Assembly (NCBI GenBank): GCA_947454705.1 | Contig: CANGKZ010000035.1 | Location: 1-54,833 of the forward strand | DNA from: Verrucomicrobiota bacterium | Lineage (GTDB): Bacteria; Verrucomicrobiota; Verrucomicrobiia; Limisphaerales; UBA9464 | DNA length: 54,833 nucleotides | Reading direction: 5' to 3' | Shown here: positions 5,827 through 31,654 of the stretch, in pieces | How positions within the stretch are numbered: position 1 is the stretch's first letter | Layout: every line of letters starts with the position of its first letter | The notes under the pieces: model-generated | Database searches by the model: none | The model's input: only the letters and a program-made list of their open reading frames with translations | What the model was told of the DNA's origin: nothing | Program-made: the position numbers and the translations under genes

Positions 5827-5844
5827 CGGAGAAGAAGGAGATTA

Positions 5845-5929: not shown

Positions 5930-5973
5930 TAAAAACAGGGTGCGTTTGGCAGTGAGGAAAATGAAGGAAATGG

Positions 5974-6056: not shown

Positions 6057-6067
6057 CGAAAAGGGGG

Positions 6068-15565: not shown

Positions 15566-15575
15566 GGGCGGGGGG

Positions 15576-15609: not shown

Positions 15610-15645
15610 AGGGAGCGGGGTGACTTGGTGCGTTGGACTTTGGAC

Positions 15646-16476
15646 TTACTTCGTTCCGACTCCGGCCGAGAATCCGAAGACGAGGACGATGTGAAACGCG
15701 GTGAACACAAGGAGGCTGTAGGTGAGCGGAATGTGGACGAACAGCCAGAGTCTCAGGCTGAGTTGAAGGGCGTGTTGTTCGTCGATGCTGTCCTTGCGTC
15801 GGACGAGCAGAACGAGTTCATCGAGGACTTTTTTCTGGTCGGCGTTGAGGAAGCGCTGGAGGTCTTCGAGTTTGTCGAGGAGACGCCGGGCGGTCCGATG
15901 CGTTCCCACCCAGTGCTGCCACAGGCTGCCGGGATCGACGAAATATCCGGCGAGGTGAAGATTGTAGAAATCGGCGATGGCCGCGGATTGCGTGGACACC
16001 ACGGAATCGAGCGCAAGCTGCTCGGCACGTTCCGCGAGTTGGCGTCGGACGATCGGAATGCGTTCGAACACCACTTCATCGCCGCACGCGGTGAGGCGGC
16101 GGGGCACCACACGCGACCAGAACAATCCGAGCACTCCGCTGAGAGCCACCGCGGTGTAGAGGACGGCAAGAATCCCTTCAAACCAGCCCGAGGGCCAGCG
16201 CCACCCGGTGTGGACCATGAACAGTCCGACCGAGAAATAGCCCACGTAGGCGTGGAGCTGGAGCCAGGTGCGGGAGTTGCCCAGCGGGAGGAAGGGGAGC
16301 TTTTTGCGCGCGTTGTACGCGGTGAGAAAGAGGCAGACGGCCAGCAGGGCCCATCCGGTGAGGGCCGCCATGTGGCGCAGCGAAGGGGCCAGCTGCGCGT
16401 GTCCAAACACCAACGCCACCAGGGCGGCGATCAGCAGGATGAGGCCGGCGAAGCGGCGTTGGACGAAGGGGCGCAT
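15646..16476 (-). CDS. Membrane cytochrome b-like protein, diheme pattern
   Basis: A 276-residue integral membrane protein with about five hydrophobic segments (10-28, 36-55, 75-92, 100-120, 242-270). Two helices each carry a pair of histidines 14 residues apart: H75/H89 (HAYVGYFSVGLFMVH) and H248/H262 (HIPLTYSLLVFTAFH). This spacing is what is expected for two stacked b-type hemes bridging helices, as in diheme cytochrome b subunits of membrane oxidoreductases. A soluble loop (about 125-240) separates the helix pairs. It starts 7 bp after the Fe-S gene, so it is co-transcribed. Probable job: moving electrons between the cytoplasmic Fe-S protein or quinone pool and the decaheme cytochrome. 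Exact family not recognised. Confidence 0.8.
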   Translation of the reverse strand: MRPFVQRRFAGLILLIAALVALVFGHAQLAPSLRHMAALTGWALLAVCLFLTAYNARKKLPFLPLGNSRTWLQLHAYVGYFSVGLFMVHTGWRWPSGWFEGILAVLYTAVALSGVLGLFWSRVVPRRLTACGDEVVFERIPIVRRQLAERAEQLALDSVVSTQSAAIADFYNLHLAGYFVDPGSLWQHWVGTHRTARRLLDKLEDLQRFLNADQKKVLDELVLLVRRKDSIDEQHALQLSLRLWLFVHIPLTYSLLVFTAFHIVLVFGFSAGVGTK

Positions 16477-16483
16477 CAGCGGG

Positions 16484-18214
16484 CTAGCGTTCCAACCATT
16501 GGGCGAGCCGGTCGAGGTGGGTGAGGTCCATGCGGGTCAACGCATCGTGCGGACACGCCCGCTCGCACGCGGGGCCACCGTACTGGTCGAGGCACAGATC
16601 ACATTTGGTCGCCTTCACGATCGGCCGCATTTCGGCATCGATGACAAATCCGCCGCGTTCGTTCCGCGCTTCGACCATTCGGATGGCTTCGTACGGGCAG
16701 TTGTTGGCGCAACTCGTGCAGCCGATGCAGGTGGACTGGTTGATCACCACGTTGCCGCCCGAGGCGTCGCGGTGGATGGCTCCGGTGGGACAGCCGATCA
16801 TGCACACCGGATCGACGCAGTGCATGCAGGCCTGCGCGACCTGAATGCCGGAGCTGATCGGTCCGTGGCGCAGGAAGCGCGGGTTGTTGTCATGCGTGGA
16901 CGCGCACGCGCGGACGCAATCATCGCAGCGCGTGCAGCGGTCCAGGTTGATCACCATGGTCGCCGTGCCGTTGAAGAAGCGACGGCTGGTGAGGAATTCC
17001 ATCAGCTCGGGGCCGATGCGTTCGGCGAACCCGCCCTGCTCGTGCAGGGGATCGACTTCCTCCGCGGTTTCCACGTTGGCCGGCATGGGTTCCGGCAGTG
17101 CGGACGCGGGTGCTCCGGGGAGGACGATTTCCTCCATCACGTGCGTGGGCACGAAGAGCGTGTGGGTGTAGCCAATGACGCGAAGCGACGCTTGAAAAGG
17201 AACGGTGCGGTCGGGATGGCGCCAGTTGTGGGCGATCTCGCGCAGACCGAAGGAGCGTCCGGCTCCGAGGTAATTCAGGGTGCGCTGCCCGTTGGCAAAG
17301 CGCTTGGTGAGGCGGGCGAATCCGGACCGGACGAACACCACGCCATCGGGATAGTCACCTTCCTGCGCAATCGGAGTTTCGCGCTCCGGGGCGTTGGAAC
17401 CGGACTGCGCGAGCTTCTTGTAATCGCCCGACCAGTCGTAGTCGCCAAAGGTGCCGAACTGGGTCTGTGCCGCGACGCGCTGGAGCTGTTCCTCGTTCAG
17501 ATGCTGGAACAGCGGGAACGACCGGAGTGCGTTGGAAAGCGTGTTTTTCCGGTACAGGGCATCGATGTGCGCGCGGAGGGTGGGATCGTACTTGAGAAGA
17601 TCGCGCAGGCCCTGCCAGCGGATCTCGAGGAGCTCGGTGTCGTCGGTGTCCGCCAGAATGGTGGCGGTTCGCGGCATGCGGCTCAGCGCGGCAATTTCAC
17701 CGAAGAATTCGCCGGCGCCCACGGTGACGGTCTTGTTCTGCTCGATCAGCCGGGGGACGTCCTGAAGAAACACGCGGGCCTCGGCGCCTTCACCGACCAG
17801 ATTACCAGTTTTGGAACCGAGCTCCTCCGGGGTGCGGACCTCGGGGTGACGGTGGTTGTTCCAAAGTTGGGCGACGATTTTGAAGAGCGACTTGCGGCCC
17901 GGGGCGCGACGGCCGAGGACCTCGTCGGGAAGCCCCGGTGGCAGCACGACGCGGACGGAGCCGCCGAGGATCATGAAGGCCGACGATCCGAAGTCGCCCG
18001 CGCGGACGATCAATTCGCCGCGTTGGAAACGGCGGATTCGGCAGTCGTTTTGCAGGATCGCGCGGAGCGGCTGGCGGCGGGGAAAGCTCTCCGGGTTCAT
18101 TTCCCGGAACGGCGCGATTCCGAGCAGGCGGTCGAGATCCGCCTCCACAAAGCCGGGGTCCAGCGGGCTGTCCCACCGTCCCGGTCGCTCCCCCTTCAGA
18201 ATCGTGTCGTCCAT
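16484..18214 (-). CDS. Two cyclic-nucleotide-binding domains fused to a four-cluster ferredoxin
   Basis: A 576-residue cytoplasmic protein. The first CNB-type domain (about 55-215) contains a good phosphate-binding cassette, GEFFGEIAALSRMPRTAT (168-185). The second (about 232-360) is degenerate in that region. The C-terminal part (about 420-560) resembles DmsB/HybA-type electron-transfer subunits with four cysteine sets: C427-C430-C433-C437, C463-C466-C471-C475, C496-C499-C502-C506, and C538-C541-C550-C554. That gives up to four [4Fe-4S] clusters. It lies between the FAD/2Fe-2S reductase (21 bp upstream) and the cytochrome b (7 bp downstream). The architecture suggests electron flow gated by cAMP, c-di-GMP or another ligand; gating is inference. 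Confidence 0.92.
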   Translation of the reverse strand: MDDTILKGERPGRWDSPLDPGFVEADLDRLLGIAPFREMNPESFPRRQPLRAILQNDCRIRRFQRGELIVRAGDFGSSAFMILGGSVRVVLPPGLPDEVLGRRAPGRKSLFKIVAQLWNNHRHPEVRTPEELGSKTGNLVGEGAEARVFLQDVPRLIEQNKTVTVGAGEFFGEIAALSRMPRTATILADTDDTELLEIRWQGLRDLLKYDPTLRAHIDALYRKNTLSNALRSFPLFQHLNEEQLQRVAAQTQFGTFGDYDWSGDYKKLAQSGSNAPERETPIAQEGDYPDGVVFVRSGFARLTKRFANGQRTLNYLGAGRSFGLREIAHNWRHPDRTVPFQASLRVIGYTHTLFVPTHVMEEIVLPGAPASALPEPMPANVETAEEVDPLHEQGGFAERIGPELMEFLTSRRFFNGTATMVINLDRCTRCDDCVRACASTHDNNPRFLRHGPISSGIQVAQACMHCVDPVCMIGCPTGAIHRDASGGNVVINQSTCIGCTSCANNCPYEAIRMVEARNERGGFVIDAEMRPIVKATKCDLCLDQYGGPACERACPHDALTRMDLTHLDRLAQWLER

Positions 18215-18235
18215 GTCGGTGCGATCGATCAGGCG

Positions 18236-19546
18236 TCAGGCGTCGAGAACCAGATCCGTCTTGGGACGGCAGATGCAGGTGAGGCAGGAGCCGGCTTCGC
18301 CCACGTTGGTTTCGCCGCCGAGGTATTCCACTTCGCCCTGTTTCACCGCGACGGAACACGATCCGCAGCTGCCGGCGCGGCATCCGCTGTCGATACGAAC
18401 CTCATTGGCCAGGGCGAAATCGAGGAGATTGAGCGTGGCTGGATCCCAGGCGACGACCTTGCCTGATTTGCCGAAGGTGACCTGAACCGCCTTCGCGCCC
18501 GCCCCAGTTGCTGTGGTGGCTGGCGGAGTGGCGTTGGTCTTCTTGATGGTCGCGGGACCGAAGGCTTCGTAGTGGATCTTGGCGTCCGGGACGCCCCACT
18601 CGGTGAGGCCCTCGTACATGGTCTTCATGAACGAGCCGTTGCCGCACAGATAGTAGTCGTAGTTGTTGGAGGGCAGGACCGACTTGAGAACGTCGGGCGT
18701 CAGTCGTCCGGCCGTGTGGTAGTCGCGGCCCTGGACGTCATTGGGGCCGGGCTTGGAGTAGCAGACCACGACTCGAATGTTTTCGGCGCGGGCGGCCAGT
18801 TGATCCAGCTCGGCCTTGAGCATGTGATCGCTTCGGTTCCGGCAGACGAAGAAGAACCAGGTCTCGCGTCGCGAACCGGTCGCGGCGATGTCGAGGGCCA
18901 TCGACAGCACCGGGGTGATGCCCACACCGGCGCTGATCAGGACGACAGGGGACTGCTTGGCGGTCTCGAGGTGGAAGTGTCCGGTCGGGGCCTTCACGTT
19001 GAGCAGGTCGCCCTCACGCACGGAATCGACGAAGAAGCTGGATCCCACGCCATCCGGAACACCGGGTTTGTCGGGCGGGGCTTTCTCTTTTTTGATCGTG
19101 ACGCGGTAGGATGAAGCGTCGCTCGGCGGTGAACTCAGCGAGTAGCAGCGGACCACCTGCTTGTCGCGTCCGGGAATATCGAGGCCGAAGGTGAGATACT
19201 GCCCGGGCTTGAAGGCGGGAATGGATTTGCCGTCGTGCGGTTGAAGGACGAACGAAAAGACGTCGGCGCACTCCGCGGCTTTTTTCACCACGCGAAATTT
19301 GCGCCAGCCGTTCCAGGACGACTTTTCATGCTCGATCTGGGTCCAGCGGCTTTTAGCCAGCCGGACTTCGTAGGCGAGACGTTCGCGCTCGAGCTGGAAC
19401 TGATGACGGGCCTGGGCCTGACGACGGAGGGATCCAATGACGGCGAGGGCCGTTTGAACCATGACCGCGGCCAGGAGGCCAAAGCCGATCAGGATGCCCG
19501 GACCGGCGTGCCAGGAGTCCGGGAGAAACGAGAGAAGGCTTTGCAT
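18236..19546 (-). CDS. Membrane-anchored FAD/NAD(P) oxidoreductase with C-terminal 2Fe-2S ferredoxin
   Basis: A 436-residue protein built like a phthalate-dioxygenase-reductase/NqrF-type enzyme. Features: N-terminal membrane helix (about 17-38), FAD-binding RCYSLSS (133-139), NAD(P)-binding SAGVGITP (205-212) and CGNG (301-304). A plant-type 2Fe-2S domain follows with C389, C394, C397 and a distal CLTC. Such proteins move electrons between NAD(P)H and one-electron carriers. As first gene of the redox operon it likely supplies electrons to the four-cluster Fe-S protein. The order FAD/NAD then 2Fe-2S at the C-terminus is that of phthalate dioxygenase reductase; the N-terminal helix recalls NqrF. 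Start ATG 19546 has no Shine-Dalgarno sequence and faces a divergent gene only 30 bp away. Confidence 0.92.
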   Translation of the reverse strand: MQSLLSFLPDSWHAGPGILIGFGLLAAVMVQTALAVIGSLRRQAQARHQFQLERERLAYEVRLAKSRWTQIEHEKSSWNGWRKFRVVKKAAECADVFSFVLQPHDGKSIPAFKPGQYLTFGLDIPGRDKQVVRCYSLSSPPSDASSYRVTIKKEKAPPDKPGVPDGVGSSFFVDSVREGDLLNVKAPTGHFHLETAKQSPVVLISAGVGITPVLSMALDIAATGSRRETWFFFVCRNRSDHMLKAELDQLAARAENIRVVVCYSKPGPNDVQGRDYHTAGRLTPDVLKSVLPSNNYDYYLCGNGSFMKTMYEGLTEWGVPDAKIHYEAFGPATIKKTNATPPATTATGAGAKAVQVTFGKSGKVVAWDPATLNLLDFALANEVRIDSGCRAGSCGSCSVAVKQGEVEYLGGETNVGEAGSCLTCICRPKTDLVLDA

Positions 19547-19576: not shown

Positions 19577-20755
19577 ATGCGAAGTAAACCTCTTTGGCCG
19601 TCCAACGGAGGGTTTTTCGCGTCCATCGCCGGAGTGAGGGCTTTTGTGGGTGTTTTGGGCGGCATCTCGCTGGCTGTATCAACTCTGGTCGCGCAGGAGG
19701 GAATCACCCCGCGGTATGTCGGAAGCCTGTCCTGCGCCGCCTCGTCGTGCCACGGAGGCGCGGGCGAGCTGCGGGATCAATGGGTGCAGTGGAACTCGAA
19801 GGATGTGCATCGTCGCGCGGCGTCGACGCTCACGCTGGCCCGATCGACCCAGATCGCTCAGGCCGCGGGGATATCGGATCCGGCCAATCACGCCCGGTGC
19901 ACGACCTGCCACGCGCCGAATGCGGTGGTTCCCGAGGTGGCGCGACTGGCCACGCTTGATCGAACCGATGGGGTGTCGTGTGAGAGTTGTCATGCTCCGG
20001 CGGAAAGCTGGATCCGCACCCACACGCGCACATCGAAGGAAGGATTCACCTACGCCAACAAACTCGCGGCTGGGCTCCGGGATCTCCAGAACCCGTATGT
20101 CCGCGCGAATACCTGCGTGGCGTGTCACCAGCATGTGGACCGGGATCTGATCCAGGCGGGGCATCCGGAATTGATTTTCGAACTCGATGGGCAGTCGGTG
20201 GCGGAACCGAGGCACTGGAAGGAACCAGCGGGGGCTTCAGGCGCGCGGAACTGGTGGGTGGGACAAGCGGTGGCTCTGCGGGAAATCGCCTGGCAGATGT
20301 CGCGTCCCGGAGTGTCCGACGACAAGAGCGCCGCGCGTCAGGCCGGATTGCAGTGGATGCTGGACCGGACGGCCTCGGCGGTGCTAGGGGACACGACAAA
20401 GCTTGGATTTATCACGGACGCAACCGGACCGCAGGCATTGGCGGATCAGCGCGCGCGAGCCGCATCGGCTGTAGAGTGGCCGGTGGCGAAGACAATGGCT
20501 GTGTTGCGGATTTTGGCTGGAACGGCTGTGGATTTCCGCGATGCGAAAGTCGCGCGTGACGTGCAGGCGCGTCGTGCGGAACGGCTGGTGCTGGGGCTGG
20601 ATCGTTTGATGTCAGCTCTCGAACCGAAGGTGGAAGCGAAAGCCGAGAAGGAGCTGAAGGAACTGTTCCGCCTCGCTCAATCACTGCCCGATTTTGATCC
20701 GCCCGCCTTCGCTTCCGCGCTGGAACGGTTCGAATCCCGCGTGAAAGCGCTGTAA
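19577..20755 (+). CDS. Tetraheme cytochrome c, cytochrome c554-like
   Basis: A 392-residue exported protein with a signal sequence or anchor (about 12-39), then YVGSLSCAASSCHGG, a CX4CH heme site (C53-C58-H59) typical of the cytochrome c554/multiheme family, followed by CTTCH (108-112), CESCH (135-139) and CVACH (180-184). The C-terminal half (about 215-390) has no heme and is alpha-helical. The frame is open upstream to 19235, but that part is antisense to the reductase gene; the ATG at 19577 gives the signal peptide. It diverges from the redox operon and faces the porin-cytochrome operon tail-to-tail. Plausibly a periplasmic shuttle between the two multiheme systems. Confidence 0.88.
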   Translation: MRSKPLWPSNGGFFASIAGVRAFVGVLGGISLAVSTLVAQEGITPRYVGSLSCAASSCHGGAGELRDQWVQWNSKDVHRRAASTLTLARSTQIAQAAGISDPANHARCTTCHAPNAVVPEVARLATLDRTDGVSCESCHAPAESWIRTHTRTSKEGFTYANKLAAGLRDLQNPYVRANTCVACHQHVDRDLIQAGHPELIFELDGQSVAEPRHWKEPAGASGARNWWVGQAVALREIAWQMSRPGVSDDKSAARQAGLQWMLDRTASAVLGDTTKLGFITDATGPQALADQRARAASAVEWPVAKTMAVLRILAGTAVDFRDAKVARDVQARRAERLVLGLDRLMSALEPKVEAKAEKELKELFRLAQSLPDFDPPAFASALERFESRVKAL

Positions 20756-20790: not shown

Positions 20791-22080
20791 TCAGGGAACG
20801 AGACTAACCTGGTACCAGCGGTGCGGGGAGGGGCCGGGGGCCGAGTCAGTCCAATCGGTCGTGATGCCGGATGCTGTGAGTGGTGTCCCAAGAATGGTCC
20901 ATGGCGCATCCAGCGCGTCCCGCGTGAACACTTGGTAACGTGCCCCGGGTTGGCTTTCCCAGTGAAGAAGTGTTCCGGCCTCCGCCTTGAGACTCACCGT
21001 CAATGCGAACGGTGCGTGGAGTTCGCGCAGGGTTTGATTGAAGGTGTCGGTCATCACCAGCGATCCACGCGGGGTGATCACCAGTCCGTACGGATTGAAA
21101 AATCGGGCCGCGGTGTAGTTCCCATCGCCGCTGCCTTCGGCTCCCGCCAGACCCGCCACGGTGGAGACCTGTCCGCCGGGGGTGATGCGTCGCAGGGTGT
21201 GGAACCAGGCGTCGGTCACGTAGAGATTGCCCCGGGCATCGAAGGCCAGTTCGGCTGGTGTACCAAATCTGGAATCCTTCGTGGGTCCGTCGGCGCTGCC
21301 GTCCTCGCCCGGTTTTCCGGCGAGCAGGGTGACGGTGCCGTCGGGACTGACCCTGCGCAGGGTATGATTCAGGGAATCGGCCACCACCAGATTGCCGGAC
21401 CGATCGAGGGCCAGGCCCACCGGTCCATTGAATCGGGCAACATTCCCGGGGCCGTTCTCGTCGCCCCAGGATTCCGCGACGCCTGCGAACGAGGTGACCT
21501 GTCCTCGGGCGTCCATCCGGCGAATGAGGTGATTGCCGGAGTCGGCAACGAAGACATCGCCCGAGGCGGTCACGGCGAGACCCAGCGGCGCATTGAAGCG
21601 GACCTGACTGCCGATGCCATTGGTCGCACCGGTCACTCCGGCGAGACCTGCGGGGGTGGTGATCCGCCCGTTGCGATCGAGACGGCGCAGGGTGTGGTTG
21701 CCGATGTCGCTGATGTAAACCGTCCCGTCGGGAGCGACTGCCAGTGCTGACGGAGAATCAAATCGGGCCGCAGTTCCGACGCCATCCGCTGAGCCTGCCA
21801 GACCGGGGCCGCCGGCGATGGTGCTCACGATTCCTGCGGGGGTGATTCTGCGGACGCAGTGATTCCCGGAGTCGGCGAGGAGGAGGTTGCCGTCGGCATC
21901 GATCGCGAGGCCGACCGGATCGGCGAACCGGGCTGCGGTTCCCACGCCGTCCGAATGTCCCGAGATTCCCGCGCCTCCAGCGAGCGTTGCGACGGCATCG
22001 GCAGCTTTCGTCTGGATGCCTGTCAACAGCGCGAATGCGAATCCTATGCTGAGCAGGCGGAGGGCTCCGGAGCGGTTCAT
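20791..22080 (-). CDS. Secreted NHL-repeat six-bladed propeller protein
   Basis: A 429-residue exported protein. After a signal peptide (about 1-27) there are six NHL blades, each with a variant of ADSGNHxxRRI (ADSGNHCVRRI, SDIGNHTLRRL, ADSGNHLIRRM, ADSLNHTLRRV, TDAWFHTLRRI, TDTFNQTLREL). The final 80 residues form a module (LLHWESQPGARYQVFTRD...WYQVSLV) that also appears at the end of the protein at 36730-38694. The ATG overlaps the stop of the decaheme/LVIVD gene by 4 bases and has a good GGAGGGG site just upstream, pointing to translational coupling. Likely extracellular partner or scaffold of the porin-cytochrome proteins; ligand unknown. Confidence 0.9.
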   Translation of the reverse strand: MNRSGALRLLSIGFAFALLTGIQTKAADAVATLAGGAGISGHSDGVGTAARFADPVGLAIDADGNLLLADSGNHCVRRITPAGIVSTIAGGPGLAGSADGVGTAARFDSPSALAVAPDGTVYISDIGNHTLRRLDRNGRITTPAGLAGVTGATNGIGSQVRFNAPLGLAVTASGDVFVADSGNHLIRRMDARGQVTSFAGVAESWGDENGPGNVARFNGPVGLALDRSGNLVVADSLNHTLRRVSPDGTVTLLAGKPGEDGSADGPTKDSRFGTPAELAFDARGNLYVTDAWFHTLRRITPGGQVSTVAGLAGAEGSGDGNYTAARFFNPYGLVITPRGSLVMTDTFNQTLRELHAPFALTVSLKAEAGTLLHWESQPGARYQVFTRDALDAPWTILGTPLTASGITTDWTDSAPGPSPHRWYQVSLVP

Positions 22081-25000
22081 CGTCCCCTCCGTTGAAGACG
22101 TTCGCCGGCCGATGCGGGAACCGAAGGCGTTTCAGGTTCGCCGCGGAATTCGCGGGTGGGAGTGAGTTCGGTACCCGATTTGGTACGTGCGGCGGTGCCC
22201 TTGCGGCTGAGGTCCTCGACGCGGTATTCGGCGCCGGTGTGTTTGCCGGTGGCGGGATCGAGGTGGCGGAGCAGGAGGCCGAATTCCTCCTCGGTGAAGG
22301 GACGGCTTCCGCGTCGGCCGAACACCACGGTCTGCCCGCCGCTCTCGTCCACCACGCGGTCGCGGTCGAGTCCGCGGCTCACCGCCACGGCGGGGGAATG
22401 CGTGGGGAAGGTGGCGATCAATTTCGGTTCAGGCAGCGGACTGAAGCCGTAGTGGTCGGGCACGTTTTCCGGCGAAATCATCTGGAGCATGCGCAGGCCG
22501 TTTCGTCCGTCGGCCACCAGCGCGTACATGGAGGCGGCGATGCTGCCGATCTGCACGGCGCGCGCATCGTTGATCACTCCACCGGCATTGTAGTGGCGTA
22601 CGAGCGCGGGTTTCTCGGGGTTCTGGATGTCCACCAGGGCGAGGCCTTCGGGGCCGTTCGGGACGTAGAGATAGGTGCGCGCAACGTAGAGGCGTCCGGC
22701 GTGGGACAGCGGGAGGGTGGCCACCAGCCGCGGGGTGGTGGGGTGCTCGATGTTGATGACCTTGAGTCCGTCGGCATCGCTCACGAAGGCGTACCGGAAT
22801 TGGATCGCGATGGCGCGCGGGTGATTCAGCCCGGTGGTGAGTTCGCCGATGAGTTCCGGCGCGGGCTTGCCTTCTTTGAGAATTCGAACGCTGAACAGGC
22901 CGTTTTTTCCCACGACGTAGAGATGACTTCCGGCGAACGCGCTGTGTTCGGCACCGGTGAGTTTTCCTTCGGGGTTGAATCGGATGACCGGGTTTTTGCC
23001 GTCGAAGAAATTGTTGTCGGGGTTGCCATCCACCAGCGTGCCGACCACCGGCATGACGAGTCCTTCTTCACGATCGGTGACGTACACAAAGGCGTAGTTG
23101 AGGCCGATGGGTTGCTCTTCGTTGCCGGTGTAGATCTCGCCCGAGGTGGGATGTGTCTCGGTTTTGGGATAGGGCTGGCGGAGCGGATCCACGCCGAGGG
23201 TGGTGGGCAGGGTGACGCTGGTGGCGTAGCGCGTTTTCACCCACAGGCGCTGTCCGAGCGGGCTCACCGGGGCGCTGGTGATGCGTTCGCTGAAGCCCTT
23301 GTTATCCACGTTGGCGACGTCGAACACCTGGAAGCCTTCGGGTCCGTTGGCGGTGTAGAGGTATTCGCCGCGGAGGGTGAGATCGAGGATGTCGGCCCCT
23401 TCGTGATGATGGGATTCACGCAGGAGGGCGTGGTTGGTCTCGGTGTGGTTGCGGAAGGAGTCCGGATAGGCGAGGCGGTGCAGATGACTGCCGTAGGCGG
23501 CCTGGGGCTCCTCACGTTCGGTCCACACGACGGCATCGAGTCCGCCCTTCCCGGAGCCGACGTAGGCGTGGCGGCCGAAGAAGTTCACGGTGCCTGTTCC
23601 AAATCCGAGCAACGAGGTGATCCAGGCGTTGTTGCTGTTGTCGGCCGCAAGGTGGCAGTCGGTGCAGTTCTTGGTGGTGCCGACGGAGCTGGTGGTGTGG
23701 GGGAAGTGCGGGTTGTAGGCCTGTCCGCTGTAGCCCTCGGAGCTGACGGTCTGCTGCTGCGAATAGGTCCATTCGCGGTTGGAGTTCTGCGAGCTGACGA
23801 TGACCGCGCTGGAGGAACGCAGCACGCCGAGCCGGTGGCCCTTGTAGGTGGCGTCGATGCCGAGTTGGAAGACGTCGTCGCGCACCACCTGCGGATTGTA
23901 GGTGGTGTAGTTGCGGGTGGTGACGCCCTCGAACTTGTTGTTGGCCACGCGCTGGTTGGCGCGCATGGGGAGGTGGCATCCGAAACAACTGGTGGCCCAG
24001 GAGGTGTGGCAGACCTGGCAGCTGACGTTGGAATTGTCATGCGCGAGATCGCGCGCGCATTCGCTGGCGTGGTCTTCCTTCAACGGGGCGCGGTTCGACG
24101 CGTTCATCGGCTGGACGCCGCCCGGGACATCGCCCCAGTCGCGTCCGTTGCGGCGAAGCGTTTTGGCATAGGCGCTCTTCGCGTTGTAGCGGGGGGACTT
24201 GGGATCGATCGTGTCCACGACCTGCGGGACTTCCCATTCGCGGTCGGGAGCGAGCGAGCTGCGCTGGATGAGTTTCTTGCCTTCCCAGCGGAAGCGCGGG
24301 CCCCACGCGGTGTTGCTGGTTTTGAGGAGGTCGATGCCCGACTGCTTTTTCGTCGCCGCATCGTAGGGGCCGCCGGAGCCGCTGGTGATGAGGCTCGGGC
24401 GCGAGTTCACGGTGCCGTGGCAGTCCACGCATTCAATCGAGGTGACGGCGCGGGGCTCGGCGTAGAGGAGTCCGTTGCCGTGCATGTCGTGCAGGAAATG
24501 GCAGTCCACGCAGTGCATGCCGCGGGCGAGGTGGACGTCCTTCAGGTGGACGGCCTTGTCCCATTTGTGGTCGTCGTCGTGCGGGATGACGTTGTCCTCG
24601 AGGTCGAGCAGCTTGCCCTGGCGGTCGCGTTTGAAGATGGCGCGGAAGATCCAGCCGTGGCCGTGGTAGTCGGCGAACTGGGTGTGTTTCAGCTGCGGGT
24701 TGAGTTCGGCGACCTTTTCGAGGAAGTCGCGGTCGCCCCACAATCCGCGGGCCGCGGCGGCCTCGGGGTTCTCGCGATTCGCGGCGGCGATTTCTGCTTC
24801 GGTCGGGTTCTTCTGCTTCGCGGGATACATGAACTCGCCATCGGTTTCCTGATCCCACCAGGTGTAGCCGAGGAACGGATTCACAAAGAGGTTCCCCTGG
24901 TGCATGTGGCAGTTCATGCACTGCGAGGTGGGAATGGCGCGGGTGAAGACGTGGCGGATGGGGTGTCCGCGCTCATTTTTGGGAATGGTGGGATCGACGC

Positions 25001-26087
25001 TGTACGACAGCCCCTGGTGGCCGTATTTGGCGTAGTAGTCCGAGTGAGTGGGGGAGCGGTCGTTCGCGTACACGACATGGCAGGCGGAGCATCCACTCGA
25101 CCGGTAATCGCCGGGATGGTTGTTGCTGCCCATGAAGTCGAGCAGCGGGTCGTGCAGGCGGGTCTTCTGCAGGTTGAGGAACACGGGGTCGGTGCGGAGC
25201 TGGGTGCCGAGTCCGCGTTCGCTCAGGCGTCGCGCAGGTTTGCCCGGGGCTTCGGCGATGTTGGGAAGGCCGAGGGAATTGGGCCGTTCGCCGCCCTTTT
25301 CGAAAATGCGCAGGATGTTGCTGGGCTGGCTGACGGTGAAGCGCGGCAGGGGATCGAGGTAGGGCAGGATACCGTAAAGGCGTGTGGACTCGGGATCGAC
25401 AGGCACGGGGCTCTCGAGTCGCAAGGGCACGCCGTCGAGCCCGTAGGCCTGGCCGTAACGGTAATTGCGCTGGGAAAACGCACCGTTGTTGTACAGCGCG
25501 GCGCCCCAGAGCATGGCGCCGTGGCGCATGATGCTTTGTCGGACGTGCGCGACGCTGTCGCCGTGGCAGAGGCCGCAGGCGCGGTCGGCCACGCGGAGAT
25601 CGCCCGGGTTCACAAACTGGATGAACTCGGCTGACTCGTGGTTGAGCAGCACGGAGGATTCATTTGGATTGGCCGAGGATTCCCAAAAGGCCGGATTGCG
25701 CGGGGCCACGTGGGCCTTGTGCTGGGTCAATCCGGGCGCGGGATTTCCGCCGTGGCAGTCCGTGCATCCGAGCACCACGAAGGGCGAGGAATGCATGGAA
25801 TGCGAGTCGGTGGTGCGATGGCATTCCAGGCAGCCGCGGGACTTGGCGTGGGCTTCCTCGCGGGTCTGATCGATGCGATTTCGCGGCGGGCGTGCGGAGG
25901 CTTCGGCCGGGAGCGGAAGATCGGTGGGGACGGAAATGGCGGGGCCGTTGGCGGCGAGATAGCGGGTGAGCGCGGATTCCGCGCGGGCGGGGCGCGCCGC
26001 GAATCCGAGCATCGCGAGCAAGAACAGCAGGCCGGTCCAGTGCGGACCGGTTCCGCGGGACCAACGATGGGGGGATGGGGCGGTCAC
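22077..26087 (-). CDS. Decaheme cytochrome c fused to an LVIVD beta-propeller, exported
   Basis: A 1336-residue protein with a signal peptide (about 15-36) and ten CxxCH heme motifs: CLECH 86, CTDCH 108, CGLCH 171, CSACH 333, CMNCH 390, CVDCH 526, CVDCH 553, CQVCH 690, CFGCH 701, CTDCH 808. From about 865 to 1250 there are five LVIVD-like blades, e.g. YLYTANGPEGFQVFDVAN and YLYVPNGPEGLALVDIQN. Start is GTG at 26087 (frame MTAPSP), 11 bp after the outer-membrane protein stop. Position next to a large beta-barrel-like protein matches porin-cytochrome conduits, in which a multiheme cytochrome sits in or outside a barrel. Surface exposure is inferred. An alternative is a periplasmic octaheme-type reductase, but no catalytic CxxCK is visible. 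Confidence 0.92.
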   Translation of the reverse strand: MTAPSPHRWSRGTGPHWTGLLFLLAMLGFAARPARAESALTRYLAANGPAISVPTDLPLPAEASARPPRNRIDQTREEAHAKSRGCLECHRTTDSHSMHSSPFVVLGCTDCHGGNPAPGLTQHKAHVAPRNPAFWESSANPNESSVLLNHESAEFIQFVNPGDLRVADRACGLCHGDSVAHVRQSIMRHGAMLWGAALYNNGAFSQRNYRYGQAYGLDGVPLRLESPVPVDPESTRLYGILPYLDPLPRFTVSQPSNILRIFEKGGERPNSLGLPNIAEAPGKPARRLSERGLGTQLRTDPVFLNLQKTRLHDPLLDFMGSNNHPGDYRSSGCSACHVVYANDRSPTHSDYYAKYGHQGLSYSVDPTIPKNERGHPIRHVFTRAIPTSQCMNCHMHQGNLFVNPFLGYTWWDQETDGEFMYPAKQKNPTEAEIAAANRENPEAAAARGLWGDRDFLEKVAELNPQLKHTQFADYHGHGWIFRAIFKRDRQGKLLDLEDNVIPHDDDHKWDKAVHLKDVHLARGMHCVDCHFLHDMHGNGLLYAEPRAVTSIECVDCHGTVNSRPSLITSGSGGPYDAATKKQSGIDLLKTSNTAWGPRFRWEGKKLIQRSSLAPDREWEVPQVVDTIDPKSPRYNAKSAYAKTLRRNGRDWGDVPGGVQPMNASNRAPLKEDHASECARDLAHDNSNVSCQVCHTSWATSCFGCHLPMRANQRVANNKFEGVTTRNYTTYNPQVVRDDVFQLGIDATYKGHRLGVLRSSSAVIVSSQNSNREWTYSQQQTVSSEGYSGQAYNPHFPHTTSSVGTTKNCTDCHLAADNSNNAWITSLLGFGTGTVNFFGRHAYVGSGKGGLDAVVWTEREEPQAAYGSHLHRLAYPDSFRNHTETNHALLRESHHHEGADILDLTLRGEYLYTANGPEGFQVFDVANVDNKGFSERITSAPVSPLGQRLWVKTRYATSVTLPTTLGVDPLRQPYPKTETHPTSGEIYTGNEEQPIGLNYAFVYVTDREEGLVMPVVGTLVDGNPDNNFFDGKNPVIRFNPEGKLTGAEHSAFAGSHLYVVGKNGLFSVRILKEGKPAPELIGELTTGLNHPRAIAIQFRYAFVSDADGLKVINIEHPTTPRLVATLPLSHAGRLYVARTYLYVPNGPEGLALVDIQNPEKPALVRHYNAGGVINDARAVQIGSIAASMYALVADGRNGLRMLQMISPENVPDHYGFSPLPEPKLIATFPTHSPAVAVSRGLDRDRVVDESGGQTVVFGRRGSRPFTEEEFGLLLRHLDPATGKHTGAEYRVEDLSRKGTAARTKSGTELTPTREFRGEPETPSVPASAGERLQRRGR

Positions 26088-26098
26088 GGATTGCTGGT

Positions 26099-28618
26099 TC
26101 AGTAGGTGAGATTGAGTGCCAGGACACCACTGTAAAGAAAGGCATCGGGCTGGCCGGTGCGCCGTAATTCGAGGTCGTCGAATCCAGGAACCGGGTCGGT
26201 GCTGCGCCGGTACAAATCGCGATACCCGCCGCCGGGGATCAACACGCCGATTCCCGCGGTGAAGATGAGGTTGTCGGTGAGAAGGGGCCGGTATTGGAAG
26301 CCGAGGCTGAGATCGAACCCGAGTTCGGATCGGACGTTGTCCTGCAGGATGGCGGTCTGCAGCGCGTCGGTTTCGGCGAAGCGGAGGTAGTTGAAATTGA
26401 GAAACGTCCTGAGCTTGGGCGTGGTGTCGATGTCCACGCCGACGGAATAGATGAAAATGCCCGGATTGACGAAGTTCGCCTGACCCTGGGTTTTGCTCGT
26501 TCGCAAATTGGGGAACAGCGAGTTCGGCTGCTTCAGCGCCACGGCGGTTCCTCCGAGGTTCAGTCCTTGGTGCACGTAATAGCTGAACGCGCCGCCGGTG
26601 AAGTTGGGATTGTCGAGGATGCCGTCGAACCCGCCCGCGGTGGAGTCCGTGGCATCGTGATCACCGCTGGCGTAGAAGAACGAGGCCTTGTAGCGAAGCC
26701 AGTCGCGATCGTAGCTCAGTTCGAGCGCGGCCATCTGCGCGTTGAGATCCACGCGATGTCCGGCCAGCGGGTTGAAATCATCGCGTCCCACGGCCTGATA
26801 GAACTGGTGGCTGACGTTCCATCGGCCGATATGTCCATCGCCGGCCCATCCGAAATAGAACGCCTGAAGTCCGTGCGACACCGGGGTCCCGAACGGCGCG
26901 GGACGCACCAGCGAACCGGTGCGGTCGTAGTGGATTCCCGGTTCATCGAGATTCGCGGCGAAGGAAAGTTGCGAGGTGTAGCCGGGCCAAAAGAGGTCCT
27001 GACGATACGCGTTGGCGAAAAACACCTTCTGGTTCCGCTGATCGAAGCTGTTCAGCCCGGAGAAGGTGTCCTTCTCGCGCAGGTCGAATCCGGCGAGGTT
27101 GTACTGCCAGCGGTTGTTGTCCCAGTTGCCGAAGAGGCGTCCACCGAGGTTGACATCATTGAACAGGAATCCGCGGAAATCGTGATTGTATCCCTGGCTT
27201 CCGGCCTTCACGGCGAAGAAGTCGTAGTTGTCCGACAAATCACCCAGATGGTACTCGGCGCTGTATTCCTGCAACGCGAAGTAGGTCCGCGTGCGATCGA
27301 CATAACGAGCCCCGAGTTCGCCATCGCCGGCCTGTCCGAGCTGGCCATTGAGCAGGGTGCCGATGTCGCCCGGGTGCGAGACCCAGCCGTTGGGCGGTGG
27401 GGGTGTGTTGGGGCCGCGGTCGATTCCGCGCGGGTCGGGCGAGAGCAGGTTGTTCTCCTGCACCCGGGCGTAGTTCACGTTGAACACCGGGAGCAGTTTC
27501 ACCGACCAGTGGGGCGGCTTGAAGGAGGTTTCGCCCTCAAAGAGGTCGAAGGCGACGCCGAAGGTCTGCTGGATGCTGTACGACTCGCCGCGTCCGAAGA
27601 ACTCCGCGGAGTCGGCGCGTGCGGTGCTGACCGCCGACGGTGTGGGGACGCGTCGAAATTCCACCGCGGTGTCGCTGGTGGCGATGATGTTGAGAAACTT
27701 GTCCTGACCCCAGATCGGCAGGTCGCCCTTCAGACGCGATTGCTCATACGGATGCCAGAGTCGGGGTCCCGGTTTGTCGTACGGCTGCTCGCTGAGTCCG
27801 CTGGTGTAGCGTCGCCACGGGGTGAAGCCGAATCCGATCTCGTATCGATTCGGAACCGCGGTGGAAAACGGATGCGCCGCTTCGCCGCGTTCCGTGAGGG
27901 GATACTCCGGGGTGCCTTCGACGTGAAGCTCGAGCTTGCCGTTGATGCGGACATTCCGGCGTGGCAGTCGAAATTCCGGCGGCAGCGGGTCGATCCCGTA
28001 GCCCGGTTCGCCGGGCAGGGCGGCGGGACGGCGCGGGGGTTGTGGAGCGAGGACGCTTTCCTGCTGCGCGGTTCGCGGGCCCTTCAATGAATCGGGAATG
28101 GCATCGCCCTCGAACTTCGCCGCCGGTGCCGGCTCGGATTGATACAGCGGTTCCTCGGGCAGCGGCGTGGAGCGTCGCCCGCCGGGATCGGGATTGAACT
28201 GGGAACCCTGGGGAGTGGCCGTCGAAGGGTTGCGCACGATGCGCTGCCGCCGCCAGATGGGCAGTTCGGGAATCACGCGCCGGGGCGGGGCGGGGGCGGC
28301 ACCAGAATCGATACGCACCTCGGCGGGGGATTTGGGCGGAGTTCCGGTGCTGACGGTCTGGTTCGGGCGTGGTTGGTCCGGTGGAAGGGGCGTCGATTCG
28401 GGAGCCGGCTTGGTCGGGCGGATGGCGGTGCCCCGATGTTGGAACGGGTCTTCGGCGCTGAATGCGGACGAGGAAATCAATGCGGCAACGGAGGCGATCC
28501 GGGACAACGCGGCGGACCGCCCCAGAAATGAAACCTCGGGTTCCAGCCGGCGGCGCCGCGCGTGGGGAGGCTCCGCGGCGGTGGGCCCACTACCTTCCTG
28601 TCGATCGCGGGTGGGCAT
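26099..28618 (-). CDS. Large outer-membrane beta-barrel-like protein (putative porin of a porin-cytochrome system)
   Basis: An 839-residue protein with an unusually long N-terminus before a signal-like segment (RIASVAALISSSAFS, about 40-54), then a proline-rich linker (about 60-220). The C-terminal 600 residues have alternating aromatic/polar strand-like sequence and many Asp/Asn turns, ending ALNLTY with a terminal aromatic as in outer-membrane barrels. No CxxCH motif is present. It is first in a tight operon with the decaheme/LVIVD cytochrome (11 bp) and the NHL propeller. Porin-cytochrome conduits use large barrels of this kind. I do not recognise a named family; the barrel assignment rests on composition, C-terminus and context. 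Confidence 0.75.
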   Translation of the reverse strand: MPTRDRQEGSGPTAAEPPHARRRRLEPEVSFLGRSAALSRIASVAALISSSAFSAEDPFQHRGTAIRPTKPAPESTPLPPDQPRPNQTVSTGTPPKSPAEVRIDSGAAPAPPRRVIPELPIWRRQRIVRNPSTATPQGSQFNPDPGGRRSTPLPEEPLYQSEPAPAAKFEGDAIPDSLKGPRTAQQESVLAPQPPRRPAALPGEPGYGIDPLPPEFRLPRRNVRINGKLELHVEGTPEYPLTERGEAAHPFSTAVPNRYEIGFGFTPWRRYTSGLSEQPYDKPGPRLWHPYEQSRLKGDLPIWGQDKFLNIIATSDTAVEFRRVPTPSAVSTARADSAEFFGRGESYSIQQTFGVAFDLFEGETSFKPPHWSVKLLPVFNVNYARVQENNLLSPDPRGIDRGPNTPPPPNGWVSHPGDIGTLLNGQLGQAGDGELGARYVDRTRTYFALQEYSAEYHLGDLSDNYDFFAVKAGSQGYNHDFRGFLFNDVNLGGRLFGNWDNNRWQYNLAGFDLREKDTFSGLNSFDQRNQKVFFANAYRQDLFWPGYTSQLSFAANLDEPGIHYDRTGSLVRPAPFGTPVSHGLQAFYFGWAGDGHIGRWNVSHQFYQAVGRDDFNPLAGHRVDLNAQMAALELSYDRDWLRYKASFFYASGDHDATDSTAGGFDGILDNPNFTGGAFSYYVHQGLNLGGTAVALKQPNSLFPNLRTSKTQGQANFVNPGIFIYSVGVDIDTTPKLRTFLNFNYLRFAETDALQTAILQDNVRSELGFDLSLGFQYRPLLTDNLIFTAGIGVLIPGGGYRDLYRRSTDPVPGFDDLELRRTGQPDAFLYSGVLALNLTY

Positions 28619-28661: not shown

Positions 28662-30380
28662 GTGAAACGCGGAGTTCTCGCAATTCTCTTGGCCGTGGTG
28701 TCGCAGGCCGCGTTTTCAATCGCGCTGGCGGAGGCGCTCACGGCGTCGGAAATCCGTCAGATCCTCGCGCAGGCCGCGAGCAAGGCGCTCGAGCAGGTAT
28801 CAAATCCGATCCACACCAATGCGGTGATCGCCGTGGCGGACCGCGAGGGCTACGTGGTGGGGGTGTGGACGGTGGACTCGAATTACCCGGCCAATCCCAA
28901 GTTTCCCGCATTTCTCCGCAACGCCATGGCCCGCGCCGGGACTGCCTCATTCCTGAGTAGCTCGCAGCACGCATTCTCGACCCGCACGGCAGGGTTCATC
29001 GTGCAGCAGCACTTCCCCCCGGGCATCGACAACACCCCGCCCGGACCGCTGGTGGGGGTGAATTTTTCCAATCTTGGAACGAGCGACGTCAATCGCTTCA
29101 AGGATCCGGCGGGGTACGATCCCTCAATCATCAGCGGCACCAACGGCGGAGTGCTTCCCGCGCTGATCACCGGCGGGCTCACCGGAGCCGCAGGCGGAGT
29201 GCCGCTTTACAAAAACGGCCAACTGGTGGGCGGCATCGGCGTGGCGGGCGATGAGGAAGCGGGTCAGCCGCTCGGAACGCAGCAGATCCGGGTGGGGACA
29301 AATCTCGTCTCCGTGGCGTCGCTCATCACTGGGTCGTTCTTCTACGAGCTGGCGATTTCCCCGGAACTCGCCCGCGTGCCCGACGTGGACGAGGTGGTGG
29401 CGCTGGCGGGGCAGGTCGGGTTTGCCCCGGATCCACGATTGTGGGGCAGCCACGTGTTCGTCGGGGGCATCGCGCTGACTTATATCGCCACGCCTCCGGC
29501 TCCTGCGGGGACGGTGCTCCCGCTCGCCAGCACCGGTGTGGCGGTGGCGGCATATCCTGTGGTTGCTCCGCCTCCGGTGGTGTATCCGGCAGCGACGCTT
29601 GGCGGGGTGACGGGCGAGATTCGCCAGCCGATCCGGGATGACCCGATGCTGCACGATCTCTCGCTGGCGAATGACACGATCGAGGGACAGGCGCGTCTGA
29701 CGGCGGCGGAGGTAAAATCCATTTTGGAACTCGGCGCAAGGCGTGCGCGGACGACGCGTGCGGGCATCCGGCTTCCCCGGGGACGTCCGATGCAGTGCTT
29801 CATCGCGGTGGTGGGAAATCCGGATCGGGATGATGTCTCGCCGCCGGTGCTGGGTGCGTTCTGCACGTCTCCCGATGCCACGCGCTTTTCCTGGGATGTG
29901 TCGGTGCAGAAGGCGCGCACGGCGGTGTTCTTTTCGGATGCGACGCGCGCGTTCAGTTCGAGGACGGTCGGTTTCCTGGCGCAGCGGTTTTTCCCGCCTG
30001 GAATCCAGGACACGGCGCCCGGAATCTTTGCGGGCCTGCAGGAGCAGTTCAGTGGCTTTCTGTACGAGGTTCAGAATCCGCTGAACGAAGTGGTGGTTTC
30101 CGTGCCTGCGGGGCATCCGGCGCTGGCAGTGACACCGGTGCCGATGAATCCGAATCTACCCAATGGGATCACGATTTTTCCCGGCGGATTCCCGCTGTAT
30201 CGAAACGGAGTTTTGATCGGAGCGGTTGGCGTGTCGGGCGATGGAATCGACCAGGACGATTTGGTTGCCGCGAGCGCTGCGCGGGATTTCCCGGCACCGC
30301 GATTGATCCGTGCCGATCGCTCCACCTACCGCGGAGCGCGTTTGCCCTACGCCAAATTCCCCCGCAATCCGGCGCTTTGA
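28662..30380 (+). CDS. Exported protein with two GlcG/HbpS-like heme-binding domains
   Basis: A 572-residue protein with a signal peptide (about 1-24). Two copies of a GlcG/HbpS-like domain follow: LTASEIRQILAQAA...VIAVADREGYVVGVW (from about 26) and LTAAEVKSILELGA...CFIAVVGNPDRD (from about 346). Both copies keep an insertion not typical of simple GlcG proteins: HAFSTRTAGFIVQQHFPPGI and RAFSSRTVGFLAQRFFPPGI. GlcG/HbpS proteins bind or degrade heme, or sense redox state. Start is GTG with AAGGAG 17 bases upstream. It diverges from the porin-cytochrome operon with only 43 bp between starts, so a heme-related link is plausible but unproven. Confidence 0.8.
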   Translation: MKRGVLAILLAVVSQAAFSIALAEALTASEIRQILAQAASKALEQVSNPIHTNAVIAVADREGYVVGVWTVDSNYPANPKFPAFLRNAMARAGTASFLSSSQHAFSTRTAGFIVQQHFPPGIDNTPPGPLVGVNFSNLGTSDVNRFKDPAGYDPSIISGTNGGVLPALITGGLTGAAGGVPLYKNGQLVGGIGVAGDEEAGQPLGTQQIRVGTNLVSVASLITGSFFYELAISPELARVPDVDEVVALAGQVGFAPDPRLWGSHVFVGGIALTYIATPPAPAGTVLPLASTGVAVAAYPVVAPPPVVYPAATLGGVTGEIRQPIRDDPMLHDLSLANDTIEGQARLTAAEVKSILELGARRARTTRAGIRLPRGRPMQCFIAVVGNPDRDDVSPPVLGAFCTSPDATRFSWDVSVQKARTAVFFSDATRAFSSRTVGFLAQRFFPPGIQDTAPGIFAGLQEQFSGFLYEVQNPLNEVVVSVPAGHPALAVTPVPMNPNLPNGITIFPGGFPLYRNGVLIGAVGVSGDGIDQDDLVAASAARDFPAPRLIRADRSTYRGARLPYAKFPRNPAL

Positions 30381-30395
30381 GCCGGGTGGATCCTT

Positions 30396-30427
30396 CCAGC
30401 CGTTTTTCCCGCCTGCTGGCTTTTTTT
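30396..30427 (+). terminator. Rho-independent terminator after the GlcG/HbpS-like gene
   Basis: A 5-bp stem CCAGC/GCTGG (30396-30400 with 30415-30419), 14-nt loop, then C and seven T. It lies 16 bases past the stop codon. The stem is short, but the T-tract is clear. It also argues that the next gene starts at 30467, not earlier. Confidence 0.5.
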
Positions 30428-30466
30428 CTGCCGATCATTAGGGTTTTCTCAACCTTTTCAGAGCTG

Positions 30467-31654
30467 ATGTTGACCTACCGAAATCACGCGGGACGCCTCC
30501 TTGTCGCGTCGCTGCTTGGGCTGTTGGCGGATTCCATTGCGACAGCGAAGGAGCCGCCAGCGCCGCTGGTTGAGATCAGCCCCGGCATTTCCTATGTGAA
30601 CCGCCGAATTCCGTCGGGGCCGTGGTCGATCCACATCGTTCAGGTAGATCGCCGACGCGCGGACCTGCGACTGGAGTCGCGTCACGCGGGCACGGGCGCC
30701 GTGGGATTGAACACTCTGACGGAACAGATCACCGCCGTGCCTGCCGCGCTGGGAAAAGTGGAAGTGGCGATCAATGGCGATTTTTATCAACGGGACCGCG
30801 CCTACGCCGGCGATTCGCGAGGGTTGCAGGTTGTAAACGGCGAGTTGATGAGTGCGCCGACCGGCGGGGTGGCGTTCTGGGTTGATGCCGCAGGAGCACC
30901 GCACGCCGGACCGGTGGCGTCGAAACTCTCCGTCACCTGGCCGGATGGCACCACCCAGCCGATGGGGCTCAACGAGGACCGCAAGGTGACCGAGGTTGTG
31001 CTTTACACGCAGTCCATCGGCGGCGCCACGCGCACCACCGGTGGACGCGAATGGGTGCTGGAACCGGCCGAGCCCGCGGCGTCGATGATTCCCACGGCCG
31101 GGGCGGCAGTCCGGGTTCGCATTCGTGAAGCGCGCGACGCCGGCAACACCCCGGTGGGAACCAACACCTGGGTGCTTTCCATGGGTCCCGCGCTCGCACG
31201 CAAAACGGCACCGCTTGCCCCGGGAGCCCTGCTGACGGTTCAACTCGCAACCGTTCCCGCGTTGCCGGGAGTGAACGCCGCCATCGGGGGTGGCCCAATC
31301 CTGGTGCACAACGGAAAGCGGCAGAAGGTGCAGGTGCCGTCCGGCGAGTCATATGAATTCAGTTCCATGGTGGAGCGGCATCCGCGGTCGGCCGTGGGGT
31401 GGAATGCAACGTCATTGTTCTTCGTGGAGGTCGACGGTCGCCAGAAGGATCTCTCCGTGGGAATGACCCTGGATGAGCTCGGGGAGCATCTGGCATCGAT
31501 CGGATGCGACGAGGCGATGAATCTCGATGGGGGCGGGTCCTCGACTCTGTGGGTGAACGGCGCGGTTCGGAACAGTCCGTGCGACGGCAAGGAGCGTCCA
31601 ATTTCCAACGCATTGATGGTGGTTCGCAGATCCGGATCGGCCGCAGCGAAATAG
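30467..31654 (+). CDS. Phosphodiester glycosidase (NAGPA domain) protein 1
   Basis: A 395-residue exported protein of the phosphodiester-glycosidase family, whose animal member removes GlcNAc from GlcNAc-phosphate-mannose. Bacterial members probably cleave phosphodiester-linked sugars in exopolysaccharide or teichoic-like polymers. Family marks: INGDFY (about 101), GLNEDR, AIGGGPILV, HPRSAVGWN, EVDGRQ and MNLDGGGSSTLW (about 350), followed by the C-terminal family motif GKERPISNALMV. The ATG at 30467 starts a normal signal peptide; a TTG at 30377 would overlap the preceding stop and a terminator. Another paralogue follows 50 bp downstream. Confidence 0.88.
   Translation: MLTYRNHAGRLLVASLLGLLADSIATAKEPPAPLVEISPGISYVNRRIPSGPWSIHIVQVDRRRADLRLESRHAGTGAVGLNTLTEQITAVPAALGKVEVAINGDFYQRDRAYAGDSRGLQVVNGELMSAPTGGVAFWVDAAGAPHAGPVASKLSVTWPDGTTQPMGLNEDRKVTEVVLYTQSIGGATRTTGGREWVLEPAEPAASMIPTAGAAVRVRIREARDAGNTPVGTNTWVLSMGPALARKTAPLAPGALLTVQLATVPALPGVNAAIGGGPILVHNGKRQKVQVPSGESYEFSSMVERHPRSAVGWNATSLFFVEVDGRQKDLSVGMTLDELGEHLASIGCDEAMNLDGGGSSTLWVNGAVRNSPCDGKERPISNALMVVRRSGSAAAK

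Follow-up and report, generated by a model that had tools for sequence, protein, structure and literature searches.

In the MtrCAB/Pcc systems of Shewanella and Geobacter, the gene for an outer-membrane barrel stands beside genes for multiheme cytochromes, with decaheme partners; electrons enter MtrCAB through a quinol dehydrogenase such as CymA, and MtrB, the barrel that holds the cytochrome, has 26 strands. Here we analyze nine linked genes of a Verrucomicrobiota bacterium (assembly GCA_947454705.1, contig CANGKZ010000035.1; the whole 54,833-nt stretch analyzed is called the window), which are organized around an outer-membrane protein, PORIN, and a decaheme cytochrome, MHC. We propose that these genes encode a trans-envelope electron conduit that is fed by NAD(P)H, runs outward and is analogous to the porin–cytochrome systems, a reading to which we give a probability of about 0.6. 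The likeness to MtrCAB/Pcc lies in the adjacency of barrel and multiheme cytochrome genes, in the decaheme and in the heme-plus-histidine pattern of electron wires. By contrast, PORIN, a predicted 18-strand barrel of the AlgE type, has no Pfam family and no barrel match among PDB sequences, MHC falls outside the OmcA/MtrC and ExtM models and has a propeller fused to its hemes, and electrons would enter from NAD(P)H.

For the same phylum, and with the same proposed role, He et al. (2017; PMC5615132) put forward a porin–multiheme complex that has an eight-heme cytochrome next to it, naming IMCC26134 and 'Ca. Udaeobacter copiosus' among the carriers. Judging from heme count, neighbouring protein and strain rather than from locus tags, this octaheme–porin system is likely the one encoded at a separate IMCC26134 locus (L132), where an eight-heme cytochrome (seven CxxCH motifs and one CX4CH) is followed by a 763-aa heme-free protein. 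The latter is unrelated to PORIN by comparison and absent from the window's genome; it was found in 5 of the 12 genomes searched, all carriers of the PORIN–MHC system, IMCC26134 included. Since the 763-aa protein is unrelated to PORIN, we rejected the idea that the present system is simply the 2017 cluster, and the two appear to be distinct. L132 (6423–11271) has a six-heme NapC-like protein, the eight-heme cytochrome and the 763-aa protein in a row; the next frame, of 1445 aa, has YHYH and multicopper-oxidase domains.

A study of ghost-rock karst metagenomes (June 2026; PMC13264449) describes as its group 1 a set of 11 porin–cytochrome clusters in which a decaheme gene (4–5 kb) lies beside a porin of about 20 strands, with a ferredoxin-NADP reductase near in 7 of the 11. 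Its main text does not mention LVIVD, propeller, alginate or cyclic nucleotide and names Verrucomicrobiota in the introduction only. Likened by anatomy rather than by sequence, group 1 and MHC/PORIN probably belong to the same family. We found no other description in the open-licence literature beyond these two papers.

The proposed outer-membrane pair PORIN–MHC

The two genes and their parts are as follows.

26099–28618, minus strand: PORIN, an 839-aa outer-membrane protein with a proline-rich N-terminal part of about 285 residues and a predicted 18-strand barrel
26102–27721, minus strand: barrel domain of PORIN (residues 300–839), the portion kept across phyla (sphingomonad alignment; same 11 genomes as MHC)
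22077–26087, minus strand: MHC, a 1336-aa decaheme cytochrome with a C-terminal LVIVD beta-propeller (heme motifs, Pfam, alignment)
23652–25832, minus strand: heme-bearing part of MHC (residues 86–812; CxxCH positions)
22371–23582, minus strand: propeller part of MHC (residues ~836–1239; structure model)

A preliminary description of this DNA had noted a heme-free protein of 839 residues with an aromatic C-terminus, followed after 11 bp by a 1336-residue protein carrying ten CxxCH motifs and LVIVD, the gene of which overlaps that of an NHL propeller by 4 bases. Coordinates, motif counts and Pfam results agree with all of this, and PORIN contains no cysteine and ends in LTY. Its annotated start may lie too far upstream: a signal-like segment begins, by eye, near residue 35, and the ATG is only 43 bp from the start of a divergent gene.

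We modeled PORIN with AlphaFold2 from 59 sequences (58 of the 59 listed homologues plus the window protein). The mean pLDDT is 67, the barrel strands mostly reach 80–95, and 18 strands were counted from the strand list between residues 307 and 838; the outer-membrane barrel expected in the preliminary description is thus predicted, although with about 18 AlgE-like strands instead of 20 or more. The closest PDB folds are those of the alginate exporter AlgE (Z 21–24; 5d5d, Z 23.8 over 353 residues, 3.0 Å, 12% identity), in agreement with Foldseek, and Occ/OprD-type substrate porins come next (Z 18–21). The resemblance to AlgE is confined to the fold: the Pfam scan gave no match for the window protein, Alginate_exp (PF13372) included, and there is no alginate gene among the annotated sphingomonad neighbours. 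A search of the PORIN profile against PDB sequences returned no barrel at E up to 1. MtrB is not among the Foldseek/VIA matches listed for the model, an absence that excludes nothing; the results speak neither for nor against a kinship of PORIN with MtrB or OmbB.

MHC contains exactly ten CxxCH motifs, at residues 86, 108, 171, 333, 390, 526, 553, 690, 701 and 808. When the protein was shuffled (2000 trials), the mean number of motifs was 0.016 and the maximum one; together with the conservation of the motifs, this excludes a chance origin. In the counts of heme motifs, histidines and cysteines reported here and below, which cover long homologues only, the conservation threshold was 95% for the histidines of MHC, IMDEC and c554, and 85% for the histidines of CYTB and the cysteines of CNF. 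Nine of the ten MHC motifs are present in 75 of 75 aligned sequences and the first one in 74 of 75, and 13 further histidines are conserved for the ten hemes (77 rows, sphingomonad homologues included). The N-terminus looks signal-like by eye.

LVIVD is matched with 38.1 bits (Pfam cut-off 20.2), and the propeller lies inside the conserved part of the MHC alignment (45 of the 68 listed homologues plus the window protein). Family-wide conservation indicates that the LVIVD–heme fusion, which the preliminary description had listed within a combination that it did not know as described, is no local oddity but the standing architecture of a large family. Neither this fusion nor the order of the genes is special to the window, an idea that we rejected, as both recur across homologous loci. 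The structural model of MHC is good only in the propeller, with blocks of 80–95 over much of model residues 800–1200 and a poor stretch near 887–960. Model residues 797–1200 superimpose on 6-phosphogluconolactonase (6nau; Z 29.5, 295 residues, 2.6 Å) and on the YVTN propeller of an archaeal surface-layer protein (1l0q; Z 29.2, 273 residues, 2.2 Å). BtuG, a lipoprotein that caps the BtuB barrel of Bacteroides as a surface propeller, has the same general fold (Z ~25); the resemblance is of fold only, BtuG–BtuB having no hemes and a different type of barrel.

MHC is not matched by TIGR03507 (OmcA/MtrC) at E up to 0.1 and scores 54.4 bits with the ExtM model NF040943, the cut-off of which is 800 (best stretch, residues 516–566); membership of either NCBIfam family was rejected on these results. 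Kinship with eight-heme nitrite reductases was not adopted either (E 3e-4, ~50 residues, one heme-motif pair). Relative to the known conduits, what the family models and comparisons indicate as new is that MHC lies outside OmcA/MtrC and ExtM, and that PORIN differs from the porin at what is likely the octaheme locus of 2017.

A scan with one genome per species yielded 473 MHC-related stretches. The best 80 (L031–L110, 57–87% identity) were used for locus counts, to the exclusion of L001–L018; more distant MHC carriers may sit among the other 393. By taxon label, 75 of the 80 are Verrucomicrobiota, two Proteobacteria (L044, L089) and three 'bacterium' only (L043, L076, L079). Of the 68 loci with at least 2.6 kb of DNA upstream of MHC, 64 have a PORIN homologue there on the same strand, and in 52 of these the two genes overlap or are separated by at most 60 bp. 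The PORIN–MHC gaps of L099 and L102, close relatives of the window gene, are 914 and 952 bp, compared to a few bases in most loci. A second decaheme protein (485–601 aa, by heme-motif count) is encoded in 21 of the 80 loci, sometimes directly before PORIN.

The two genes also co-occur at the genome level. Among 387 genomes drawn from the phylum (E up to 1e-60 for MHC and up to 1e-5 for the PORIN barrel), 11 contain MHC, and exactly these 11 contain the PORIN barrel; these genomes span 8 genera and do not represent 11 independent events. The role of porin–cytochrome conduit suggested in the preliminary description therefore receives partial support, from the barrel model, from decaheme homologues that neighbour a barrel in 64 of 68 loci and from the shared 11 of 387 genomes, with the reservation that the predicted barrel does not reach 20 strands. 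Neither outcome named there as a refutation, a failed barrel prediction or decaheme homologues that never neighbour a barrel, was observed. Its three-gene order recurs in other Verrucomicrobiota as far as PORIN and MHC are concerned, NHL being optional.

The putative electron-entry module and c554

Although the trio of NHL, MHC and PORIN is real, the system extends further, to parts missed in the preliminary description: an electron-entry module (13889–19546), c554 (19577–20755) and HbpS (28662–30380). The module and c554 comprise five genes.

18236–19546, minus strand: FNR, an FAD/NAD-binding reductase with an N-terminal hydrophobic segment and a C-terminal 2Fe-2S domain (family scans)
16484–18214, minus strand: CNF, with cyclic-nucleotide-binding domains (cNMP_binding, 3.5e-25, 3 stretches) and four 4Fe-4S clusters
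15646–16476, minus strand: CYTB, a membrane protein that resembles cytochrome b and has four hydrophobic segments (weak Ni_hydr_CYTB/DUF4405 matches, below cut-off)
13889–15565, minus strand: IMDEC, with a Cys-rich N-terminal domain, one membrane span (residues 106–124) and a periplasmic decaheme part (ten CxxCH)
19577–20755, plus strand: c554, an exported tetraheme cytochrome with one CX4CH and three CxxCH (Cytochrome_C554, 1.7e-9); its frame is readable from 19235 as well

FNR, CNF, CYTB and IMDEC form a tight run in this order, with gaps of 21, 7 and 80 bp and IMDEC last, while c554 is divergent from FNR. CYTB is cytochrome b561-like, as recognized by a weak Pfam match. The conserved ligands fit the cofactors: exactly 16 cysteines of CNF are invariant (25 of 25 sequences), the number expected for four 4Fe-4S clusters, and exactly four histidines of CYTB (24 of 24), the number that two b hemes would need. 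IMDEC has ten heme motifs in 22 of 22 rows and exactly ten other conserved histidines (24 rows), c554 four motifs in 21 of 21 rows and exactly four other histidines (23 rows). Read most simply, the ligand pattern in IMDEC, c554, MHC, CYTB and CNF suits bis-His hemes and clusters that form a wire rather than a set of open catalytic sites, the pairing of each heme with a histidine being deduced from the numbers of conserved residues.

All four entry genes are found in 18 of the 80 loci, always in the order FNR–CNF–CYTB–IMDEC. In seven loci (L056, L057, L064–L067 and L091; L066 is from the complete genome of Verrucomicrobia bacterium IMCC26134), they continue on one strand into PORIN–MHC, and in eight (L085–L088, L092, L093, L095, L098) c554 precedes PORIN on the same strand. 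In the 387-genome draw, IMDEC is present in all 11 MHC genomes and in six more. CYTB is likewise present in all 11, although in three the match is weak (E 1e-11 to 1e-14); of seven further genomes with CYTB, six are the additional IMDEC genomes. In this draw, then, the outer pair never occurs without IMDEC and CYTB, whereas IMDEC and CYTB have other uses; their presence in all 11 MHC genomes would fit an entry module that feeds MHC.

Seven stretches from these six pair-less genomes were inspected. L139 and L143 contain a full FNR–CNF–CYTB–IMDEC-like run and a c554-like gene, L141 has FNR–CNF–CYTB followed by multiheme frames, and in L138 FNR is divergent from CNF and an IMDEC-like gene is present; the other three are less clear. 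The IMDEC variants of L139 and L143 (773 and 795 aa) align with the window protein mainly over its first ~370–450 residues.

A second phylum and two further genes

A protein search across 72,556 plasmid records found MHC on 13 of them, 12 from Sphingobium and one from Sphingopyxis, over 91–93% of its length at 40–44% identity; two Gloeothece plasmid records match the propeller region only. The PORIN barrel is present on the same 13 records as full-length MHC and on no others; the sphingomonad homologues compared align over residues 286–810 of the window protein at 38–39%. Sphingobium IMDEC was found on 12 of the 13, all Sphingobium. The Sphingobium plasmids are closely related to one another and should not be counted as independent cases.

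On plasmid pMSHV of S. herbicidovorans, c554, HbpS (see below), PORIN and MHC are consecutive and either overlap or stand no more than 2 bases apart; on the opposite strand, IMDEC, CYTB and CNF come next. The heme motifs are kept in Sphingobium, ten in MHC, ten in IMDEC and four in c554, the c554 homologue having a fifth. No FNR match was found among the Sphingobium CDS compared; CNF starts instead with a fused Pyr_redox flavoprotein domain, and an FHA-like N-terminal domain replaces the Cys-rich one of IMDEC. That two different pyridine-nucleotide flavoproteins fill the same slot is the best evidence that NAD(P)H lies at the inner end of the chain.

A metallophosphoesterase gene lies beside the CNF-bearing module in L145 (18942–19790) and L147 (19226–20110; annotated as CpdA, a cAMP phosphodiesterase), a proximity to a cyclic-nucleotide-domain module that hints at control by cAMP. 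In L145 (Sphingobium), c554–HbpS–PORIN–MHC are directly preceded by a transporter of the two-partner secretion type and by a frame of 2092 aa (458–8611).

Two further genes of the window complete the nine.

20791–22080, minus strand: NHL, an exported NHL propeller of 429 aa, the optional third gene (Pfam NHL, 115.9 versus a cut-off of 20)
28662–30380, plus strand: HbpS, exported, with HbpS-like domains, divergent from PORIN (PF03928, 2.3e-19, 2 stretches)

NHL, which shares the 4 bases with MHC, adjoins the 3' side of MHC in only 31 of 65 loci and is therefore regarded as accessory; it has no match among the 24 CDS compared from three sphingomonad plasmid stretches. An HbpS homologue is present in 48 of the 80 loci, and in 27 of 57 it is divergent from PORIN and at most 2 kb away, a possible undercount given that distances were taken from mechanical start codons. 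HbpS is a linked part of the system; going by the family name, we would guess at a role in heme handling. Two similar-looking tandem genes (30377–31654 and 31705–32910) are also found in the window, the first matching the phosphodiester glycosidase NAGPA. Near the entry module, 6068–10831 (minus strand) and 8783–12028 (plus strand) encode Planctomycete-type cytochrome/DUF1549/DUF1553 proteins, and a DUF1501 gene (12126–13583) lies beside it. We considered the overlap of the Planctomycete-cytochrome genes as an oddity and dropped it, since the frames overlap but the family domains do not.

Proposed route and direction of the electrons

Gene content, ligands, predicted folds, linkage and co-occurrence lead us to propose the following order of carriers. 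FNR would take electrons from NAD(P)H and pass them, via its 2Fe-2S cluster, through the four 4Fe-4S clusters of CNF, a step that would be gated by cyclic nucleotide. The two b hemes of CYTB would take them through the inner membrane to IMDEC, which is periplasmic and membrane-anchored and from which tetraheme c554 would shuttle them over the periplasm to PORIN–MHC. The ten hemes of MHC, if exposed at the cell surface, would finally hand the electrons to an acceptor there, humic quinones or metal oxides being the obvious candidates, and the LVIVD propeller may cap the barrel or bind the acceptor.

Several observations weigh against this proposal. No PORIN homologue was found in the DNA examined at four of the 68 loci (L081, L101, L106 and L109). 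Among loci of at least 20 kb, IMDEC is present in 19 of 42 and c554 in 17 of 42, so that linkage between the entry module and the outer pair is common but not the rule. Nor is the entry module dedicated to the pair, as six genomes of the draw have it while lacking PORIN and MHC at the thresholds used; on the Sphingopyxis plasmid, no match to Sphingobium IMDEC was obtained. The MHC model is uninformative on the heme part. Moreover, a predicted barrel of 18 strands is narrower than the 26-strand MtrB and may not accommodate a decaheme, which makes threading of MHC through PORIN doubtful; the propeller as a cap, or hemes docked at the mouth of the barrel, are alternatives. Finally, no lipobox was detected on MHC, which leaves its surface anchoring unexplained, and its mean column identity of 51% would also suit an enzyme.

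The last three points keep alive the chief rival, in which PORIN admits a small soluble anionic acceptor, such as a humic fragment, an aromatic acid or an oxyanion, and MHC reduces it in the periplasm with electrons from the NAD(P)H module, so that no electron crosses the outer membrane. The ranking of fold matches, AlgE followed by the Occ/OprD-type substrate porins, would suit such an uptake route, as would a cytochrome devoid of a lipobox and a conservation fitting a specific substrate. We nevertheless consider a periplasmic reductase unlikely, if still worth serious attention: with one further histidine per heme in IMDEC and c554, and 13 for 10 in MHC, no open heme site is evident, and a porin that served uptake alone would have no need of so strict an association with a cytochrome.

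The outward conduit must also be compared to its reverse, in which electrons run inward, supplied by reduced humics, Fe(II) or a partner cell, and make NAD(P)H or feed the respiratory chain. Two carriers, Sphingobium and Udaeobacter, are aerobes, which would suit electron uptake. There is also a precedent, as PMC6831781 describes PioAB, a two-part porin–cytochrome system, as harvesting electrons. However, both phyla have a pyridine-nucleotide flavoprotein at the cytoplasmic end, and no energy-coupled pump is seen among the module's families. Reduction of NAD by bis-His hemes is uphill, and we regard the inward direction as improbable.

Equally improbable is a role of PORIN, in the manner of AlgE, in the export or anchoring of a polymer or of MHC itself, with the redox proteins modifying the product: although AlgE is the best fold match, Alginate_exp matches 2 of the 59 aligned PORIN sequences (best 1.3e-4) and a two-partner secretion pair precedes the Sphingobium operon, the likeness to AlgE is a shared fold at 12–14% identity, no polymer gene is common to the three annotated sphingomonad stretches (Verrucomicrobiota loci were not surveyed for them), and a glycosyltransferase is annotated in L146 only, where it lies ~2.8 kb downstream of MHC.

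Going further, the system may represent an independently evolved class of trans-envelope electron conduit, fed by NAD(P)H via a cyclic-nucleotide-gated Fe-S protein instead of by quinol, with an AlgE-type 18-strand barrel probably too narrow for a full decaheme, a propeller cap fused to the hemes, and a distribution over two phyla that includes sphingomonad megaplasmids. We put this forward tentatively, at somewhat less than even odds.

Cultured Sphingobium strains are, to our knowledge, not known for extracellular respiration. If the proposal is true, they and many uncultured Verrucomicrobiota would possess a path by which electrons of NAD(P)H reach the outer membrane, and the type of barrel would pose a structural question, namely how electrons pass across 18 strands. 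With Sphingobium herbicidovorans MH as a cultured carrier, the function of these cytochromes in the two phyla becomes testable genetically.

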